Positions 828 through 17,837 of a stretch of 20,135 bases of DNA are shown here, piece after piece. This DNA comes from a virus, in the IMG/VR virus record IMGVR_UViG_3300045110_000174, positions 1-20,135 of that record; one strand, given 5' to 3'. The position numbers and the translations under genes are program-made. Positions within the stretch are counted from its first letter, which is position 1. Each line of letters opens with the position of its first letter. The notes below the pieces were generated by a model. It did no database searches. It was not told the origin of the DNA and was given only the letters and a program-made list of their open reading frames with translations.

Positions 828-1772
828 TTAGGGCCGCCGGTACGGAAAGATAACCTCGACCTCGTCGTCGGTCGTCAGCCCGAGGTCGGCCAGCAGGCCA
901 GGGCTGAGATCCGCGACCCGCCCCGTGGCCTCGTTCGGTCCCCAGTCCGCCGGGAATGCCGTCAGCTCGATGCCGCCCGCCCGCACCAGCGCGAGCTCCT
1001 CGCGCATCATGGCCTTCGGCGTCACGTTGTAGTCCCACCGGCAAGCGACGTAATGGATGTGCGGATTGAGCCGCCGCGCCAGGCCGGTCGTACCCGGTGG
1101 CTGCGACGGCAAAAACAGATGCGGCGCCTGCTCGACCTCACTGATGAAGGCCAGCCCTTCGCTCGGCGAGACGCCGGTGTCGTCCGGCCCGCCGAAATGC
1201 GAGCACTTGCCGCTGGCCTTGAACAACGGCGCCGGCGCCTCGGCAATGCCTTCCAACGGCTCCCCGCCGAGCTCGTCGGCAATGGCCGCGGCGATGTCAA
1301 AGAACTTCGCCTCGTAGAGCTTGGCGTCGGCCTCGCTGTCGACGAAGCAGACTTCGATCAGGATTGCCGGCTTCTCGGTGTTGTTCAGAAAGAACAGGTC
1401 GGTGCGCCGCTTGGCGCCGCGATTGATGAAGCCGCAGGACGCAATGGCGGCCGACATCTCAGCGGCGAGCGCCTCTTGCGTCACGTAGAGCACCTCGACG
1501 CCCATCGGCTTCTCGACCTGCTCGTAGGCGTTGAAGTGGCAACTGATATCGACGTCGCGTTCCTGCGCGTTGTGGAAGTTCACGATCGCGTTCAGGTTCT
1601 CGTTCTGGCTGCGGCTGCTGTTGTCGTGAAACACCATCACATCGGTGCCCCGGCTCTGCAGCTCCTCCGCGACCCGGTTGACGACCCTGCGGGCCTCGTC
1701 GACCTCGTCGAGGATGCCGCAGGCTCCGCGGACGTAGAGACCGTGACCAGACGAGATTACAACTTTTTGCAT
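828..1772 (-). CDS. Endolysin: N-acetylmuramoyl-L-alanine amidase (Amidase_3-like) with barrel-like C-terminal domain
   Basis: The product should cut the amide bond between N-acetylmuramic acid and the stem peptide and so release phage at lysis. From the ATG at 1772 (314 aa) the zinc amidase pattern is visible: His10 in SSGHG, a Glu near residue 26 in the DEVDEAR segment, His79 in ISCHFNA, and the catalytic-type Glu140 in LIEVCFVDS. Residues of about 1-168 form this domain. The rest (about 185-314) contains DWGPNEATGRVADLSPGLL followed by a LG..TDD.VEV end, which resembles the double-psi barrel of RlpA-like proteins. GAGG lies seven bases before the ATG at 1772, so I chose it over the ATG at 1778. 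No signal peptide is seen, so export would need the neighbouring membrane protein. Confidence 0.88.
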   Translation of the reverse strand: MQKVVISSGHGLYVRGACGILDEVDEARRVVNRVAEELQSRGTDVMVFHDNSSRSQNENLNAIVNFHNAQERDVDISCHFNAYEQVEKPMGVEVLYVTQEALAAEMSAAIASCGFINRGAKRRTDLFFLNNTEKPAILIEVCFVDSEADAKLYEAKFFDIAAAIADELGGEPLEGIAEAPAPLFKASGKCSHFGGPDDTGVSPSEGLAFISEVEQAPHLFLPSQPPGTTGLARRLNPHIHYVACRWDYNVTPKAMMREELALVRAGGIELTAFPADWGPNEATGRVADLSPGLLADLGLTTDDEVEVIFPYRRP

Positions 1773-1781
1773 GGCCATGCC

Positions 1782-4267: not shown

Positions 4268-4771
4268 ATGCCCAGGCGCATAGATATTACTGGCGTGCGG
4301 TTCGGTCGATTGGTTGCAATCCAGCCCGCCGGCCAGGATATTCACCGAAACACGCTCTGGCTTTGTTGTTGCGACTGCCAAAGCCATCATGTCGCCGGTC
4401 TTACCGACCTTCGCAGCGGCAACACGAGGTCCTGCGGATGCTATGGTGGTAGATACCGCCACGGCTACTCTACGAGACAGCGATCTCACGATCTTTACAG
4501 TACATGGGAAAACATGCACCAACGCTGCAATAACCCCAACAAGGATAATTATAAGTGGTATGGCGCGCGAGGCATCAAAGTCTGCAAACGTTGGGATAGC
4601 TTTGTCAACTTCCTCGCGGACGTTGGAGAGCGTCCACCAGGTCTCACAATTGATCGCATCAATAACGATGGCAATTACGAACCTGGGAACGTCAGGTGGG
4701 CCACTCAAGAAGAGCAAAGAAACAACAAACGCCCCCAAAACCGAGTCCCGGTGGAACACCATCACGGCTGA
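4268..4771 (+). CDS. HNH-type (homing) endonuclease, 167 aa, inserted against the late operon
   Basis: ATG at 4268 with GGGAG at 4256-4260. The N-terminal part has the GxRFGRL start and a Cys pattern suited to a zinc ribbon (C35-x-C37 with C56-x-C58, within DLRSGNTRSCGC). The C-terminal part has Y-x-x-W, a RCNNP segment, YGARGIKVCKRW at about 98-109, and TIDRINNDGNYEPGNVRWAT at about 127-146, followed by EEQRNNKR. This is the phage HNH/homing-endonuclease type with the YGxRGI motif. The nuclease core has Asp-Arg where classical HNH proteins have His-His, so catalysis is not certain. It is the only plus-strand gene inside the leftward operon, and its end overlaps the converging 153-aa gene by ten bases. 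This placement is typical of a free-standing homing endonuclease. Confidence 0.85.
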   Translation: MPRRIDITGVRFGRLVAIQPAGQDIHRNTLWLCCCDCQSHHVAGLTDLRSGNTRSCGCYGGRYRHGYSTRQRSHDLYSTWENMHQRCNNPNKDNYKWYGARGIKVCKRWDSFVNFLADVGERPPGLTIDRINNDGNYEPGNVRWATQEEQRNNKRPQNRVPVEHHHG

Positions 4772-9507: not shown

Positions 9508-9908
9508 CAGGCGATCACCCGCTGCTCAGCCTCAAGCGACCACGCCACCTCGGCCGCCCACTCGTCGCGCGAGGTGTTCCAGCTCGTGACCTTGGCCATG
9601 ATAGTCAGCACCTCGCCTGCGCCATCGGTGCCGCCGCTGCCGAGGCCGGGGATGCAGGTAATGGTGATGTCCTGGCCGGGCCACACGTCGGTGAGCGTCG
9701 GCGCTTCATGGTCCGTGCAACTGATCGTCACCTTGTGCTGCCGGAACTGCGCCAGCGAAATGTCGGCGAGCTCGCCGCGGCAGTCGCGCGCCAGTGCTGC
9801 CGCCTGATCGATCGGCGCCAATGTCATCGTGATGCCACGCACGGCATAATCGCTGAAGTCAATGTCATCGATCGCGAGCAGCGTATAGGCAGGAACATGC
9901 GTCAGCAT
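9507..9908 (-). CDS. Tail protein directly downstream of the tape measure, 133 aa
   Basis: The start at 9908 overlaps the tape measure stop (TGATG) and the stop overlaps the hub gene start in the same way. The protein is compact and beta-rich, with IDDIDFSDYAVRGITMTL near the N-terminus, a cysteine pair region (RDCRGEL, ISCTDHE), a PGQDITITCIPGL strand and the ending EVAWSLEAEQRVIA. Small proteins at this place are often distal tail or hub-linking proteins. This one shows no recognisable DUF2460 or NlpC/P60 motif such as gene transfer agents carry here. The assignment to the tail tip rests on position only. Confidence 0.65.
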   Translation of the reverse strand: MLTHVPAYTLLAIDDIDFSDYAVRGITMTLAPIDQAAALARDCRGELADISLAQFRQHKVTISCTDHEAPTLTDVWPGQDITITCIPGLGSGGTDGAGEVLTIMAKVTSWNTSRDEWAAEVAWSLEAEQRVIA

Positions 9909-11494
9909 CAGGAATACCGGCTCGGCTTCCGGCCGCCGCTTCTGACTTGTGCCATTGCCGCGGCATTGCGCAACTGATCGACCACCGCGGACGATGCGCG
10001 CAGGCCGCTGATCTCTGGCAGGCCAGGGAAATGGATGCTGACGTGATTCATGCTGCCGGCGAAGGCTGGGATCGACAGCCTGGGCGCGACCATGCCGCCG
10101 AGGGCGAAGCGGCCCATGCCGTTGAGCACGGCACGCAGGTTGCCGCCCGAGAAGCGCAAGGCTTCCAGCAGCGCCAGCACGCCCGGCTGGCTCACGGCGC
10201 GCGCCGGCATGATGTGTTCGCCACGCGAGACCCAGGCGAGGTTGCTGTCGCTCGTGCCGGTACCGCGACCGCCGAGCAGGCCGCCGCCGGCCCTACCGGG
10301 GATGCCGCCGCCCGCAGGCGAAGCGGCCCCGCCGCCGCCGGTGAATACGCTTAAGAACGCCGCCCCCTTCTCGGCCATCCAGTCCAGCGCGCTCTGGAAA
10401 CTATCCTTGAGCCACTGCCAGGCGTTGCCGATGGGCGTCGTGACCCACGCTTCAATGGTGGCGCTGACCTGTGCGACGACAGCATTGAACGCCGCGGGAA
10501 TACTTTGAAAAGCAGCAATGATCGGATCGATTATCGCATGCTCCAGAGCTCCCAGACTCTGCAAGTCCTTTACAAAGTTCGCCAGCCCCGCTCCCAAATC
10601 CTCGACCGGCGCGGGCGCAAAACTGGAAGCCGCAAATGCCTTGCTGATCTTGTCCCAGGCTTGCCCAAGTGCATCCAGCGCCTGCTTATGCCGCTCGGCC
10701 GAGGCCTGACTTTTCGCGAGGGCCGCCGACCCCTTTTCGAGTTCCTTTATGACCTCCGGTGCACCCTTCAGACGCTTTAGCGCATCGTCAAATATGGTTT
10801 GCCCGATCGGCGACAGCCCCTCACGCATCCTCGCAAGTTCAAGAGTAGCCTTCCGAAAATTCGCGCCCAACTTATCCGCATTAGCCCCAATATCGTCGAT
10901 TGATATTTTGGCGGTATCCAGCGCGGTGACGATCGACTTCGCCATTGTCTCCGGCGAAGTCAACGCGCTGATAGTGCTGAAGGTGGTTCTGTTTGCCACC
11001 TTTCCTAAGTTCCCAAGCTCATCCGCAATCAATGCAATGTTGTTTGAAGCGTCTTTGCCACCGGCCAGTTCCGGGTGCATTTCCGCATTGACCTTGGCAA
11101 ACTCGGCCATGGTCGCGGTCGTGGCCTTCAGCTGATCTTCCGCCTCCTTCATCTTGCTCTTGAAGAAAGAGAACGCTGCGGCCGCCGCGAATATGGCGGC
11201 ACCAAGCGTCCCCAGTGTCATCCCAATCCTTGCAATCCCGACCGCGGTGCCGGCCAGCTCGCCCGCGCCCATCTCCTTCATGATCTTGCCGAGGGAGCGC
11301 AGCTCGCGCGACGAAACGCCGGACTTCTGCGAGACCTGATCCAGCCCCTGGCCGAGTTGCTGCGTACCGCCGGCCGTGCTTGCAGCCGTGGCCTGCACTT
11401 CTTCGGTCGCCTGGCCGACCTTCTTGATCTCGGCGGCAGCCTGGTCGGCCCCGTCGACCTCGATCTTGATCGTCTGGACTATCGCGTCAGCCAT
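9908..11494 (-). CDS. Tail tape measure protein, 528 aa
   Basis: It sets tail length and probably helps DNA cross the membrane. Visible are an N-terminal helical region (EIKKVGQATEEVQATAAS), a hydrophobic stretch at about 82-111 (GTLGAAIFAAAAAFSFFK), long Ala/Lys/Glu helices to about residue 330, and then a glycine-rich linker (GGGGAASPAGGG) before 412. The signature GRGTGTSDSNLAWVSRGEHI at about 409-428 matches the C-terminal GTGTSDS...SxGE motif common in tape measures. At 528 aa it is short. With the usual rough rule of 0.15 nm per residue, this would give a tail of about 80 nm. Its ATG lies eight bases inside the end of the preceding gene. Confidence 0.9.
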   Translation of the reverse strand: MADAIVQTIKIEVDGADQAAAEIKKVGQATEEVQATAASTAGGTQQLGQGLDQVSQKSGVSSRELRSLGKIMKEMGAGELAGTAVGIARIGMTLGTLGAAIFAAAAAFSFFKSKMKEAEDQLKATTATMAEFAKVNAEMHPELAGGKDASNNIALIADELGNLGKVANRTTFSTISALTSPETMAKSIVTALDTAKISIDDIGANADKLGANFRKATLELARMREGLSPIGQTIFDDALKRLKGAPEVIKELEKGSAALAKSQASAERHKQALDALGQAWDKISKAFAASSFAPAPVEDLGAGLANFVKDLQSLGALEHAIIDPIIAAFQSIPAAFNAVVAQVSATIEAWVTTPIGNAWQWLKDSFQSALDWMAEKGAAFLSVFTGGGGAASPAGGGIPGRAGGGLLGGRGTGTSDSNLAWVSRGEHIMPARAVSQPGVLALLEALRFSGGNLRAVLNGMGRFALGGMVAPRLSIPAFAGSMNHVSIHFPGLPEISGLRASSAVVDQLRNAAAMAQVRSGGRKPSRYS

Positions 11495-12029
11495 TTTTCA
11501 TCTCGTCCCTGAGCTGTTGACGCATCTTACTTGCTTCATCACGGATGATCCGTAGCAAGTGGAATTTCCTGCGGATGATGACCTTCTTCACCCCGATGTA
11601 TTTCACCTGCTTGTCGTCGGCCGACATCAGCAGCGGCGTGTCGCGCTTCTTGAGCCGCTTGACCTGGAACAAGCGGCCAGGGAATTTACTCGCCGGCGGC
11701 CCGCCCGGCTCCACCGGAATCCAGAGTAACGGGTCGCCTTTGATGGTCGCGCCTTTCTGAAAGATGCGCCACAGGCGCTTGGAATGGTGGAAGACGATCG
11801 TCGTAGACTTACCGTCTTCGCCCGAGATGTCGTAGGTAAAGCCGGATATCCATGCGCCGGTAAACCTGCCGGCAGCGGCAATGTCGGCGCGGCCCTCGCG
11901 CAGAACATTGTCGGCAAACTGCTTGGCTGATGCCGTCACCGTCCCCGCAAACCGCTGCTTCAAACGGTCAACGGTTTCGTCGATCTGTGGCTTTATCGAA
12001 TTTGATCGCAGGCGAATGCGGACTGCCAC
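11487..12029 (-). CDS. Minor tail/neck protein between chaperone and tape measure, 180 aa
   Basis: GTG start at 12029, two bases after the TAG that ends the chaperone extension frame. The sequence is basic (KQRFAGTVTASAKQFADNVL, VKRLKKRD, KKVIIRRKFHLLRIIRDEAS) with a central FQKGATIKGDPLLWIPVEPG segment. That segment and the following KYIGVKKVIIRRKFH resemble a phage protein family found beside tape measures in alphaproteobacterial phages (possibly DUF6441 or HK97 gp10-like; I am not certain which). Such proteins act in tail or neck completion. No membrane segment is visible. Its end overlaps the tape measure start by eight bases. Confidence 0.65.
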   Translation of the reverse strand: MAVRIRLRSNSIKPQIDETVDRLKQRFAGTVTASAKQFADNVLREGRADIAAAGRFTGAWISGFTYDISGEDGKSTTIVFHHSKRLWRIFQKGATIKGDPLLWIPVEPGGPPASKFPGRLFQVKRLKKRDTPLLMSADDKQVKYIGVKKVIIRRKFHLLRIIRDEASKMRQQLRDEMKNG

Positions 12030-12031
12030 GG

Positions 12032-12331
12032 CTAAGGCGTTCCCAGTTCCTTGATGGTTTTCTCGATGGTCTTGCCGTCGCCCTGCGCGCCGATGGCGGT
12101 GATTGCGAGATCGTTCGCCCGCTCCATGCGGTCGAGCCTCTCATTGAGATCGCGGTAGGCGTCGATCTGGCGCCAGGTCAGCGTCATTGCATAGTCGGGC
12201 GGGAAGCCTCGCCTGATGAGGGCGGTGATACCGAGGGCGATTTCTTCAAGCGCACTTTGACGGCCTTTGCTCCTTCGCCCGGCGCCCCGAGGGTCGTTAG
12301 CCGATTGACGAAGGAGCCAAAACCGTTTGGG
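12032..12331 (-). CDS. Frameshift extension of the tail assembly chaperone (gpT-like part)
   Basis: This frame has no well-placed start of its own for its conserved part; it is entered by a -1 shift at 12331-12325. From the CGG codon at 12325 it encodes 97 residues: a basic linker (RQSANDPRGAGRRSKGRQ), then ALEEIALGITALIRRGFPPD and TLTWRQIDAYRDLNERL, a helical domain typical of chaperone extensions that contact tape measure and tail tube. This conserved part begins well upstream of the ATG at 12187, which overlaps the gpG stop as ATGA. A separate 51-residue protein from that ATG would lose half the domain, though it cannot be excluded. The fused product would be about 207 aa. Confidence 0.68.
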   Translation of the reverse strand, partial: PKRFWLLRQSANDPRGAGRRSKGRQSALEEIALGITALIRRGFPPDYAMTLTWRQIDAYRDLNERLDRMERANDLAITAIGAQGDGKTIEKTIKELGTP

Positions 12332-12654
12332 AATGTGAGCCTGATAATTGCATCCAGCAGCTTCAACTGGTCTTCCATCAGTAAATTCACGTTGGCGTGC
12401 TGCTCGTATTTCTCGTCCCCGAGATGCCCGCACCCGGCCGCAATGATCGAGCCGATCGAGGCGCCGAACAATTCGATCAGGACTGGCACGATATTATTGC
12501 CGAAGTCTCCGCTCGCGAGCCGCTTGAGATCCGGGAAACGCGACACGATGGATGCAACCGCATTGCCATGCAAACCGCGCACGACGATCCGCCCGCCGTT
12601 GATCCGCACGACCTCGGATGCCGTCAGCGTTGCTATGTCGAGGAGGTCGGCCAT
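12184..12654 (-). CDS. Tail assembly chaperone (gpG-like), 156 aa
   Basis: The ATG at 12654 overlaps the tail tube stop as TAATG, so I reject the longer in-frame ORF reaching into the tail tube gene. The product is helical: MADLLDIATLTASEVVRING, a RFPDLKRLASGDFG section, a hydrophobic VPVLIELFGASIGSIIAAGC stretch at about 57-76, and LLMEDQLKLLDAIIRLTFPN. Position directly after the tail tube and before the tape measure is that of gpG-type chaperones, which coat the tape measure during tail assembly. The end after the slip site (KSPSVSPPSSGEASRPTMQ) is low in complexity, as expected of the short form. Expression of the long form depends on the slippery heptamer. Confidence 0.78.
   Translation of the reverse strand: MADLLDIATLTASEVVRINGGRIVVRGLHGNAVASIVSRFPDLKRLASGDFGNNIVPVLIELFGASIGSIIAAGCGHLGDEKYEQHANVNLLMEDQLKLLDAIIRLTFPNGFGSFVNRLTTLGAPGEGAKAVKVRLKKSPSVSPPSSGEASRPTMQ
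12325..12331 (-). other. Slippery heptamer CCCAAAC for programmed -1 frameshifting
   Basis: On the minus strand C CCA AAC is in the zero frame of the gpG-like gene (codons at 12330 and 12327). It matches the canonical X XXY YYZ pattern; after slipping back one base the tRNAs pair with CCC and AAA. Reading then goes on in the open frame to the TAG at 12032-12034. I saw no other heptamer of this kind in the overlap of the two frames. Confidence 0.7.
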
Positions 12655-13187
12655 TATGGCACCACCACGGCTTCGTTGATGGTGAACACACCGAAGGTGC
12701 CATCGGTGTCGTCCCGCTGCACCTCGGCCTCGATCTGCAAGGTCGAGAAGTCGTCGGCGTCGGTGATGAAGCTGAAATCGCCGGTCGGGTTGACCGAGAT
12801 GCGGCCGGTGAAATCCACCTTTTGGCCGATGTCGTTGGTTCCCACCACCTGGATGATGCCGACGATCTCCAGCTTTTTGAATGCGCTCACCGTGATGCTG
12901 CCGTCGACATCGGGAGTGCCGACCTCGCCGAGGGTGAAAATGGCGAGGTTCTCTGCGTTGATCTCGTCGAGCGTGAACTTGATGGTGGCGCCGACTTGGG
13001 TGACCGCCGTGAAGTCCTTGACCTTGACGCCCTCTCGGCTCGTGAAGTGTTCTTTTTTCGCAACCGTCGGCGTCCACACAAACGACGGCGCGTTGCCGAG
13101 ATCGAGGAAGGTAGAGCCGCCGTCTTCCTTGAAGCTGACGATACCTTTGCCGATGTGGTAATTGCTGATGCTCGGTGACGCGGGCAT
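12654..13187 (-). CDS. Major tail tube protein, 177 aa
   Basis: The ATG at 13187 has GAGGAG about ten bases upstream. The protein is beta-rich throughout: YHIGKGIVSFKEDGGSTFLD, then a short PSFVWTPTVAKKEHFTSREG segment, and strands such as ATIKFTLDEINAENLAIFTL and ITVSAFKKLEIVGIIQV. The PTGDFSFITDADDFSTLQIE stretch and an acidic end follow. The KKEHFTSREGVKVKD motif with a downstream E-N-L segment is usual for tube proteins of alphaproteobacterial siphophages. Position between a terminator-type protein and the tail chaperone supports this strongly. It would polymerise around the tape measure to form the tail tube. Confidence 0.82.
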   Translation of the reverse strand: MPASPSISNYHIGKGIVSFKEDGGSTFLDLGNAPSFVWTPTVAKKEHFTSREGVKVKDFTAVTQVGATIKFTLDEINAENLAIFTLGEVGTPDVDGSITVSAFKKLEIVGIIQVVGTNDIGQKVDFTGRISVNPTGDFSFITDADDFSTLQIEAEVQRDDTDGTFGVFTINEAVVVP

Positions 13188-14883: not shown

Positions 14884-15654
14884 TTAGCGCGCCTCGTCGT
14901 GAAACTGCTCGAACAAGCTGCGCAGTTCGAGTGCCGGCGCCTCGCTCTTGTCGGACAGGATCGGAATCGCGGCGTAGGCCTTGCGGTCGATCTTCCACCC
15001 GATGATCGTAGGCGCGGACGTTCCCGGCAACCCGCGCGCGCCTACGGCGCCTGTCTCCCCGCGCTCGCCCGCCGGCCCCTTGCTGCCCTGTCGGCCGGCG
15101 GACGCGATCAACTGCCAGCCCTCGCCTGGACACGCCCCAGGCGCCGCGCGCCGCGCGATGAAGCTCGAGCCGGTGAGCGCGACGATGTCGAGCGCCGCAT
15201 AGGTCTCGGCTTCGCTCCAGGTGCCGCGCACCTTCGGCATCGCCGCATCGCGACCGGGGCAGGCAATGCAGATCCAATCGGCATGCCCCGGCGCCTGCCC
15301 GGTATCGCAGCTAGCCTGCCAGGTGCCGCCGCCATGGGTGACCACGACGCCGGCGTAGTGGACGGTGTCCGACGCCCATTCCCGCACCGCCGGCAGCGTT
15401 CCAGGCTCGCCCTTCTGGCCGCGCGCGCCGTCCGTGCCATCGAGGCCGGCCGCCCCTGCAGGCCCAGGCAACCCCTTCTCGCCGCGCTCGCCCTTCTCGC
15501 CGGCCTCGCCTTTCGGGCCGCGCTTACCTTCCGGGCCGGGAATGCGGGCCAGCGCGCGGACCTCTTCCAGGGCGCGCCGCCCCAGTGCCAGGCAAGTGCC
15601 GACCGCTTCGAAGAGCGTGTATTGTGGAACGGGGACGGCCGGTTTGTCGCTCAT
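14884..15654 (-). CDS. Collagen-like phage fibre protein with two chitin-binding-like modules, 256 aa
   Basis: Residues 40-85 form sixteen Gly-X-Y triplets (GPEGKRGPKGEAGEKGERG and on), and 187-211 form nine more. Between them are two copies of a W-x-x-x-x-x-Y-x-x-x-x-x-V module: REWASDTVHYAGVVVTHGGG ending ADWICIA, and RGTWSEAETYAALDIVALTG ending GWQLIA. These resemble CBM5/12-type carbohydrate-binding folds. Gly-X-Y parts would form a triple helix, so a trimeric fibre or head decoration is likely. I chose the ATG at 15654 because GGGAGA lies about four bases upstream; ATG at 15672, overlapping the previous stop as ATGA, is an alternative. The C-terminal 45 residues (from KIDRKAYAAIPILSD) may cap the trimer. 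Confidence 0.78.
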   Translation of the reverse strand: MSDKPAVPVPQYTLFEAVGTCLALGRRALEEVRALARIPGPEGKRGPKGEAGEKGERGEKGLPGPAGAAGLDGTDGARGQKGEPGTLPAVREWASDTVHYAGVVVTHGGGTWQASCDTGQAPGHADWICIACPGRDAAMPKVRGTWSEAETYAALDIVALTGSSFIARRAAPGACPGEGWQLIASAGRQGSKGPAGERGETGAVGARGLPGTSAPTIIGWKIDRKAYAAIPILSDKSEAPALELRSLFEQFHDEAR

Positions 15655-15668
15655 GCCGTCTCCCATAA

Positions 15669-16313
15669 TCATGCCGCCAGCAGCCACACAACCGCGGCGG
15701 CTTCGTCATCGTCCTGCCGGCCGGTGGCGACCGCTTCCAGGGTGCCGATCACGCCGAAACCCTTGCCGCGCGCGCCGATAGAACCCGCACCGGCAACCTT
15801 GAGGCTGAGAACGGCCACCGCCGTGCCCTTCGCGCCGCGCGCGCCGCTGGCCGCCGCCTTGACCGTGAGAGGCCCATTCCCTTGCCCACCGGCGCCGGCC
15901 GCACCAGTGGCCTCGCCAGCAAGACTGCGCAGCACCGCAGCGCCGATGCTGACTGCAACAACGACGCCGTGAGCCTCGCCTTCGAGTGCCGGGAGTATTC
16001 CGTAACCGACGCCCTCGACGAGGTCCGGCCGCAACTGTTCACGACGACCTCCGCCGGGAAGGATGACAACGAACGCCGGCTGGACGACGGCATCGGCGAT
16101 GTCCGCGGCGGATGCGGCCTCGGCCACGCTGACGACGATCGGCAGCACGTCCGGCGGCGGAATGGTCGGAACGGTGCTGATAGGCGCAGCCGCGACCGGC
16201 CCGAAACCGAGCACACCACCGGAACTGATAGACGGCGGCTGAACCGCCTGCGGTGGCTGGGCGACTGGAGCCGTCGCGAGCGGCGCCGCCGAGACCGGAC
16301 AAAACCCGAGCAT
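15669..16313 (-). CDS. Low-complexity repeat protein of the fibre block, 214 aa
   Basis: The ATG at 16313 is three bases past the stop of the S74 fibre gene. The N-terminal part has two copies, 33 residues apart, of a Gly-Phe-x-Pro motif: LGFCPVSAAPLATAP at 2-16 and LGFGPVAAAPISTVP at 35-49, set in Pro-rich linkers. The C-terminal half is Gly/Ala/Val-rich with recurring short strands (ASGARGAKGTAVAVLSLKVA, then GSIGARGKGFGVIGTLEAVA), which suggests a repetitive beta structure. No enzyme motif or membrane anchor is evident. Between a fibre and a collagen-like protein, it is probably a fibre or decoration part. I do not recognise a named family. Confidence 0.62.
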   Translation of the reverse strand: MLGFCPVSAAPLATAPVAQPPQAVQPPSISSGGVLGFGPVAAAPISTVPTIPPPDVLPIVVSVAEAASAADIADAVVQPAFVVILPGGGRREQLRPDLVEGVGYGILPALEGEAHGVVVAVSIGAAVLRSLAGEATGAAGAGGQGNGPLTVKAAASGARGAKGTAVAVLSLKVAGAGSIGARGKGFGVIGTLEAVATGRQDDDEAAAVVWLLAA

Positions 16314-16316
16314 CGG

Positions 16317-17837
16317 CTATGCCGCCCCTTCCAGCGCCGCGACCCGCGCTGCCAGTTCCTTGACGGCATTAACCAGCGCGAACGTCAACGCAGTGGTGTC
16401 GAGCACGCGCAGATCGGCAACCGGCTTGCCGTCGACAAATCCGATCTCAGTCGTCACCATCTCGGGCATCGGCACTTCGGCCTGCTGCGCGATGAGGCCG
16501 ATAAATTCTTTCAGCTCTTCCGCAGGCTTTGGAGCCGGCCGATCCTTCGGGTCCGGCGACGGAGCTGACTTGCTGTAATTCCCCTTGAATTTATACCGCA
16601 CCGGCAAAAGCTGCAGCACCTCGGCGAGCCCGTGCGTGTAGTCGCCGACCACATCCTTGATGCGTTCGTCGGACGGTGCAGTCCAAGAACCGCCGCCAGG
16701 TTTGTAAGCCACGCCGGTAATGTTGAGATCGCCCGCCACGTCGAGCTTGGAACCCGGTGCCGACGTGCCGATGCCGACGTTGCGGATGTTATCGACAAAA
16801 AGCGCGCTCGTGTTGCCGATACGTAAGCCGATTGTCCCCGTCGCGGCGGCGTTCACGTAAGTGTTTTGACCGTCTCCGTAGATGGAGTAATTAGCCGCGG
16901 TGACAGCGACACTCCCGACAAAACCTATGAAGCTGCCGGGAGACAAAGAAAGATTGCCCGTCATGGTGTCGCCGGCCTTCGACACCTTGCCGTCGAGACC
17001 GGCCTGCGTCGCCGTGCTGACAGGCTTGCTGGCGTCGCTGGTGTTGTCGACGTTCGCCAGTCCGACATCGCTTTTCGTTAGCGTCACCGTGCCGGTGCGA
17101 CCGGCGACACTCTGAACCGGCGCGGCGGCCGAAGCCCGCACATTGGTATAATAAAGATTGACCGAGCCTTCCGGCACCGCATCGGTCGAGCCTGGCGACG
17201 GCGAGATCTCGATATAGGCCGAGCCAGACCAGCGATAGATTTTGCCGGTATCGAGCGCGACATAAATGATGCCTGTCGCACCCGTGGCCGGGAACGCGGC
17301 AAGGTTGGCAAATTCCAGCACGTCGTCGACATAGCTTGGGAGTTGGGCGGCCGGCACCTTCGTGCTCGCATCGAGCGAGGCGTAGCCGTTGGCGATGCCC
17401 TTGCTTGCCTTGTCCTCTTTTGCATTGAGGGCAGATATGCCGGCCGCTTCGGTCCAGGCCGCATCCTTGCGGCCATAGGTTTTTCCGTCTGACGGTGCGT
17501 CGTCGAGCTTGGCCTGCAACGCGATGATCACGCTCGCCGGCAGCGTGCAAAACACGTTCTTCGTCCCGGCCGCAAAGTTCACCAGCGCATCCGCATTGGA
17601 CGATTGCCGCACGGTGTCGCGCACCAGCGTGGTGGCGCCGGACAGGTGCCCCGTGCCGATCTCCCAAGAGCCGTTCGGCGCGCCGGTGGCGCCATCAATG
17701 GACTCGATGCAATAGTCGAACGACGGCCCGACGCCGAAGGCCGTGTTGAAGCTCTCGAAACCGGTGACGGCCCCACCTAACGTGAATGCGCCGGTGCCGG
17801 TCGCTGCCGACAGTTCCTTGACGCGGTCGGCGATCAT
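16317..17837 (-). CDS. Tail fibre with C-terminal S74 intramolecular chaperone, 506 aa
   Basis: The N-terminus MIADRVKELSAATGTGAFTL, with a WEIGTGHLSGATTLVRDTV section and LVNFAAGTKNVFCTLPA up to residue 101, is a common phage fibre attachment domain. The stem includes DVGLANVDNTSDASKPVSTA at about 257-276 and KAGDTMTGNLS at about 287-297, typical of trimeric fibres, and VGIGTSAPGSKLDVAGDL near 354-371. The end is an S74 peptidase/chaperone domain: Ser389 and Lys394 in SDERIK form the expected dyad, so self-cleavage before Ser389 would release a 118-residue chaperone after trimerisation. A short coiled coil (VNAVKELAARVAALEG) closes it. The start overlaps the previous stop as ATGA. Confidence 0.86.
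   Translation of the reverse strand: MIADRVKELSAATGTGAFTLGGAVTGFESFNTAFGVGPSFDYCIESIDGATGAPNGSWEIGTGHLSGATTLVRDTVRQSSNADALVNFAAGTKNVFCTLPASVIIALQAKLDDAPSDGKTYGRKDAAWTEAAGISALNAKEDKASKGIANGYASLDASTKVPAAQLPSYVDDVLEFANLAAFPATGATGIIYVALDTGKIYRWSGSAYIEISPSPGSTDAVPEGSVNLYYTNVRASAAAPVQSVAGRTGTVTLTKSDVGLANVDNTSDASKPVSTATQAGLDGKVSKAGDTMTGNLSLSPGSFIGFVGSVAVTAANYSIYGDGQNTYVNAAATGTIGLRIGNTSALFVDNIRNVGIGTSAPGSKLDVAGDLNITGVAYKPGGGSWTAPSDERIKDVVGDYTHGLAEVLQLLPVRYKFKGNYSKSAPSPDPKDRPAPKPAEELKEFIGLIAQQAEVPMPEMVTTEIGFVDGKPVADLRVLDTTALTFALVNAVKELAARVAALEGAA

Follow-up and report, generated by a model that had tools for sequence, protein, structure and literature searches.

Background

The frameshift heptamer of phage lambda is GGGAAAG. 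The established model for this phage assigns binding of the tape measure protein to G and binding of the major tail protein to the T portion of the frameshift product G-T, the ratio of the two products being controlled (PMC5009743). E. coli more typically slips on AAG than on AAC as the second codon, and the sequence C_CCA_AAG is highly shift-prone; in haloarchaeal viruses, AAC-ending sites serve G-T expression (PMC5009743).

Within the Casjensviridae, the protein family PF23789 bears the name 'pre-tape measure frameshift protein', and in known relatives the frameshift site lies at or shortly after an LTF motif. The heptamer is AAAAAAG in Burkholderia phage AH2 (a site also predicted in PMC3483164), Providencia phage Redjac, a Loktanella phage and Salmonella phage Chi, and Phobos and PspYZU01 have GGGAAAG or GGGAAAA; the overlap of RcPescado contains no heptamer of the X XXY YYZ type. 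Annotation joins the two frames into a single CDS in AH2, Redjac, RcPescado, Suzuki and Chi; in AH2, Chi and Redjac the product carries the name pre-tape measure frameshift protein. For gp18/gp19 of Burkholderia phage KL1 the heptamer GGGAAAC has been predicted, directly before the gp18 stop codon, and in KL1 an extra tail gene separates the chaperone from the tape measure gene (PMC3483164).

The DNA analysed here, referred to below as the window, is a stretch of 20,135 nucleotides covering positions 1 to 20,135 of the IMG/VR virus record IMGVR_UViG_3300045110_000174. A first-pass annotation of its letters had proposed that a tail assembly chaperone is extended by a programmed -1 frameshift at CCCAAAC, and had remarked that frameshifted chaperones as such are known; it was unaware that PF23789 already owes its name to the frameshift of its cultured members. 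We consider it highly probable that a long-tailed phage here uses programmed -1 ribosomal frameshifting to express its tail assembly chaperone gene. The mechanism is known, as are frameshifted tail chaperones in many tailed phages; to judge from the sequences, the locus is set apart by its heptamer and by a T domain unrelated to the known ones.

Identity of the chaperone gene

The zero-frame gene, G, extends over 12184..12654 on the minus strand and encodes a protein of 156 aa. Directly upstream of it lies the gene of the major tail protein (12654..13187, minus strand; phrog_807, E 5e-19), whose product is similar to AH2 gp57 and to other major tail proteins of Casjensviridae. Downstream follows the tape measure protein gene (9908..11494, minus strand; phrog_6090, E 6.7e-12), with one gene in between (11487..12029, minus strand) that gave a weak DUF6441 match of 24.3 bits, under the cut-off of 27. 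G itself reaches 32.2 bits against PF23789 (Pre_tape_measure), for which the curated cut-off is 27, and the family is matched by 38 of 38 aligned homologs at E <=0.001, with a best value of 7e-14. The G profile aligns with Casjensviridae G proteins at an hhalign probability of 96, and the predicted fold of G matches proteins of Phobos, phiAxp-2 and Sano (E 7e-5 to 1.5e-3, TM about 0.5); lambda-like chaperones yielded weak fold matches only, such as N15 GT at rank 24 with E 0.044. Both the gene neighbourhood and the PF23789 membership thus back the tail assembly chaperone identity that had been proposed on first reading. Searches of the PDB for similar folds returned nothing significant, and no relative was found in the bacterial genomes scanned with the G and T alignments. 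Since tblastn of G, T and a consensus against cultured phages gave no match, relatives were reached via the major tail protein and PF23789.

Two of these, Stenotrophomonas phage Suzuki and Xanthomonas phage AhaSv, possess a G protein of the same family as the window. As in the window, their chaperone gene is flanked by that of the major tail protein upstream and by the tape measure gene downstream, a T domain is encoded in the -1 frame, and an X XXY YYZ heptamer ending in AAC is followed by a hairpin that starts within about 8 nt. They differ in several respects: the heptamer of Suzuki and AhaSv is GGGAAAC instead of CCCAAAC and lies, relative to the LTF motif, about 12 residues deeper in the protein, the overlap past the heptamer measures 115-121 nt compared to 145 nt in the window, their T domain has no detectable relation to that of the window, and they lack the further gene that the window has between chaperone and tape measure. 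AH2 (gp56/gp55) and Redjac, both of which were tested, share with the window a PF23789 G protein. However, AH2, Chi and Redjac have the heptamer AAAAAAG and no comparable hairpin right behind it. KL1 resembles the window in its AAC-type heptamer and its extra gene before the tape measure, but not in the position of the site immediately before a stop codon. With lambda the window has in common the layout, the -1 direction and, presumably, the way in which G and G-T share the work (PMC5009743).

The slippery heptamer

The heptamer C CCA AAC is found at 12325..12331 on the minus strand, within the 156-aa zero-frame gene, as the first-pass annotation had described and as sequence and translations bear out; it also differs, as stated there, from the heptamer of lambda. 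The codons around the site are TTC CCA AAC GGT, so that CCCAAAC stands in the -1 slippery phase, TT[C CCA AAC]. By number, CCCAAAC is not above chance in the window (4 copies versus 1.82 expected). The heptamer alone is therefore unremarkable in a single sequence, and the case rests on the comparison of homologs.

IMG/VR was searched with the G of the window, with a divergent G and, separately, with the T domain, which yielded 112 distinct complete zero-frame genes. The T-domain patterns exclude the heptamer region, and the T-seeded search consequently represents an independent route of sampling. In all 112 distinct homologs the aligned site reads CCCAAA, the next base being C in 109, T in two and G in one. 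A homolog without the heptamer, which had been named in advance as evidence to the contrary, was not encountered: 0/112 lack CCCAAA[C/T/G] at this codon position. The codon of P109 is CCA in 112/112 and that of F108 is TTC in 110/110 homologs, while G111, an invariant neighbour of the heptamer, is encoded by four codons. A comparison of 38 divergent genes shows 27 codon columns with an invariant amino acid, and just three of these, F108 and P109 in the heptamer region and Q156 (CAA) in the overlap of the two frames, are restricted to one codon. On a tree built from codons 1-104, the third positions of codons 108, 109 and 110 require 0, 0 and 3 Fitch steps, compared to 24 steps at codon 111 and a mean of 21.6 over codons 1-104. 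The silent sites of the heptamer are thus conserved by selection that acts on the nucleotides rather than on the peptide.

A hairpin behind the heptamer

A hairpin with the 5' arm GCTCCTTCGTC (12307..12317, minus strand) and the 3' arm GGCGAAGGAGC (12269..12279, minus strand), separated by a loop of 27 nt, begins 7 nt after the heptamer; the stem pairing in the window is GCUCCUUCGUC/GGCGAAGGAGC. The first-pass annotation made no mention of a downstream hairpin. Of 58 divergent representatives with identities below 83%, 50 form a stem of 7 or more bp that begins 5-8 nt past the heptamer, whereas the same test is passed by 12% of dinucleotide shuffles, by 33-35% of synonymous-codon shuffles (irrespective of whether the -1 frame was kept open) and at 2-41% for other anchor positions in the gene. 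The mean folding z-score is -1.79 right after the heptamer, compared to -0.39 to +0.38 in other 70-nt segments, and the stem named above has 82% of its cells paired versus 42-65% for slid versions. Covariation by column is modest: six pairs show two-sided change, and 33 of 500 shuffles have as many.

RNAalifold did not return this stem as a consensus of the whole alignment, since the 3' arm is not the same in every lineage; folding of each sequence combined with the positional stem test resolved this miss. In several divergent lineages (e.g. L229, L240 and L248) the position of the hairpin is kept and its arms are different. A conserved pseudoknot was not found, the pairing between loop and downstream sequence scoring 16.2 versus 14.1 in shuffled sequences (sd 2.8). 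The hairpin probably stimulates slippage, and a conserved element of this kind would help a site of the AAC type. Stimulatory RNA structures behind the slippery site are frequent in frameshifted tail assembly chaperone genes, though not required.

A Shine-Dalgarno-like stimulator upstream of the heptamer was considered as well, and was rejected with a frequency of 7% among homologs compared to a background of 14%.

Two overlapping frames and the T domain

In the window the -1 frame is already open 5' of the heptamer and stays so until the stop codon at 12034-12032; its translation includes ALEEIALGITALIRRGFPPDYAMTLTWRQIDAYRDLNERL. The -1 portion of the fusion, comprising a linker and the T domain, spans 12032..12325 on the minus strand; a -1 shift at the heptamer computes to 207 aa, in agreement with the sizes of 156 and 207 aa originally given for G and GT. 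Between the heptamer and the zero-frame stop the -1 frame is open in 112/112 homologs, but in only 25% of synonymous-codon shuffles, and the +1 frame is open over the overlap in a single homolog (1/112).

The substitution pattern changes along the overlap. Third-position change drops from 22.4 steps in codons 97-104 to 12.0 steps in codons 113-120, directly past the heptamer, and in codons 137-156 the fastest-varying site is zero-frame position 2, which is the wobble base of the -1 frame. Frame by frame, this pattern indicates that constraint acts on G until the heptamer, on both frames over the following 25 or so codons, and on T at the end. The AlphaFold models of G and T agree with this shift: G is ordered to about residue 123 and of low confidence from residue 125, and its C-terminal part past approximately residue 124, where it overlaps the T frame, is predicted to be disordered. 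The earlier suggestion that the -1 frame encodes a C-terminal domain gains support both from its openness in all homologs and from the constraint on T late in the overlap, and the alignment of homologues that had been proposed as a check reveals the heptamer kept and both frames maintained in 112 distinct genes.

The conserved T domain (12035..12262, minus strand) is predicted to be all-helical (AlphaFold mean pLDDT 85.8). It matches only phrog_13355, a family of unknown function in PHROGs, and has no detectable relation to the T domains of AH2, Chi-like phages, Phobos and Suzuki (hhalign probability 2-7%). Its first helix, at about 12253-12212, is situated upstream of the sole nearby start codon, the ATG at 12187, and the T segment is modelled as confidently helical from segment residue 4 onwards, likewise upstream of this ATG. 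In 88/112 homologs no -1 frame ATG, GTG or TTG precedes the T domain, and none occurs in its N-terminal part in any of the 112. The statement of the first-pass annotation that the -1 frame begins long before any plausible start needs qualifying for the window, in which a formal GTG is present at 12433, upstream of the heptamer; it holds for the stretch between the heptamer and the T domain, which is free of start codons in 110/112 homologs. In these 110 homologs no -1 frame start can supply the first helix of the T domain.

In a few homologs (L039, L046, L047 and L079) the T frame ends 77-95 nt past the zero-frame stop, compared to about 150 nt otherwise, and the T domain is shortened.

The stop-start overlap and alternative explanations

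At the end of G, the zero-frame TGA overlaps an ATG of the -1 frame in the sequence GCAATGA (12184..12190, minus strand), a possible site of termination-reinitiation. GCAATGA is present in 111/112 homologs and ACAATGA in 1/112, Q156 is always CAA, and the residue encoded directly behind the ATG may be T, S, M or N, yet its codon always starts with A, preserving the TGA. Neither protein frame alone explains this nucleotide constraint. Short stop-start overlaps are common in the operon, and a third, reinitiated product consisting of T only is thus possible. Both routes might be in use, with the -1 frameshift giving rise to G-T next to G and a restart at CAATGA giving rise to a short T-only peptide. 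The invariant CAATGA, on top of all evidence for the frameshift, speaks for such a set of three products, and if they exist, two independent recoding devices would set the ratio G : G-T : T. Nevertheless, we regard the combination as unlikely. A Shine-Dalgarno-like 4-mer precedes the ATG at 12187 in 0/112 homologs, in contrast to 90% at the start of G, and a T-only peptide would miss the first helix: the ATG lies inside the T domain, no start codon precedes it within the first part of the domain, and hence it cannot yield the whole domain. Moreover, the conservation of CAATGA could reflect efficient termination. A second zero-frame stop follows two codons past the first in most homologs, and these tandem stops (TGACGCTGA) may point to selection on termination instead of restart.

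Far less probable still is that T constitutes a separate gene of 51 aa, translated from the ATG at 12187 by termination-reinitiation at the overlapping TGA, with the heptamer being incidental. On the one hand, CAATGA is invariant in 112/112 homologs, a constancy beyond the demands of the -1 frame protein on its own, other genes of the operon often meet in stop-start overlaps of 1 or 4 bases, and the 58-residue profile of phrog_13355 roughly covers T, which is consistent with gene callers splitting T off. On the other hand, the fold of T and the conservation of the -1 frame start about 22 residues before this ATG, the complete lack of a Shine-Dalgarno-like sequence weighs here as well, and the absolute conservation of the heptamer and the hairpin would be left unexplained.

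Transcriptional slippage instead of ribosomal frameshifting would likewise join both frames, and we give it next to no credence: runs of three bases are too short for typical RNA polymerase slippage, the site has runs of only three C and three A, and its codon phase and the spacer of 5-8 nt to the hairpin suit a ribosomal site. An ordinary gene overlap, in which the heptamer is kept for the nearly invariant peptide LTFPNG, can be practically dismissed: a peptide does not fix silent sites, and among the 25 other invariant codon columns of the initial 38-gene set the codon varies, Q156 (CAA) in the overlap being the only further column with a single codon.

Proposed mechanism and significance

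The programmed -1 frameshift therefore remains the preferred reading, supported by the conserved heptamer, the hairpin and the two maintained frames; that slippage occurs, at what rate, and which roles G and G-T play is what we infer. Most ribosomes would make G (156 aa), while a minority would pause at the hairpin 7 nt past the slippery site, where the P- and A-site tRNAs could re-pair one base back on C CCA AAC. The resulting G-T (207 aa) would consist of the first 110 residues of G, a basic linker and the all-helical T domain. By analogy to lambda, G may coat the tape measure protein, and the few G-T molecules may recruit the major tail protein through their T part; the anatomy of the window fits this G/G-T model.

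Our data add a large group of uncultivated phages, with more than 100 distinct sequences, for which the comparative evidence for a frameshifted tail chaperone is strong; in this group the slippery site is CCCAAAC, and the position of the hairpin is conserved even where its arms are replaced. Because the T half is represented in PHROGs only as an unknown family, ordinary annotation of such genomes would miss the fusion. The set of homologs also provides good natural data on AAC-type slippage in bacteria.

Further genes in the window

An ORF of 167 aa that runs opposite to the tail operon (4268-4771, plus strand) resembles by eye HNH-type homing endonucleases of phages (CxCC motifs, YGxRGI, NDGNYEPGNVRWAT), and it has no Pfam match at E 0.001. 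The block of structural genes contains a collagen-like protein with Gly-X-Y repeats (14884-15687, minus strand; PF01391, E 2e-13). Between the portal-side and the tail genes, a tail fibre-like protein with a C-terminal Peptidase_S74 intramolecular chaperone domain is encoded at 16317-17837 (minus strand). An endolysin-like protein of the Amidase_3 type is encoded at 828-1778 (minus strand; PF01520, E 6e-25).
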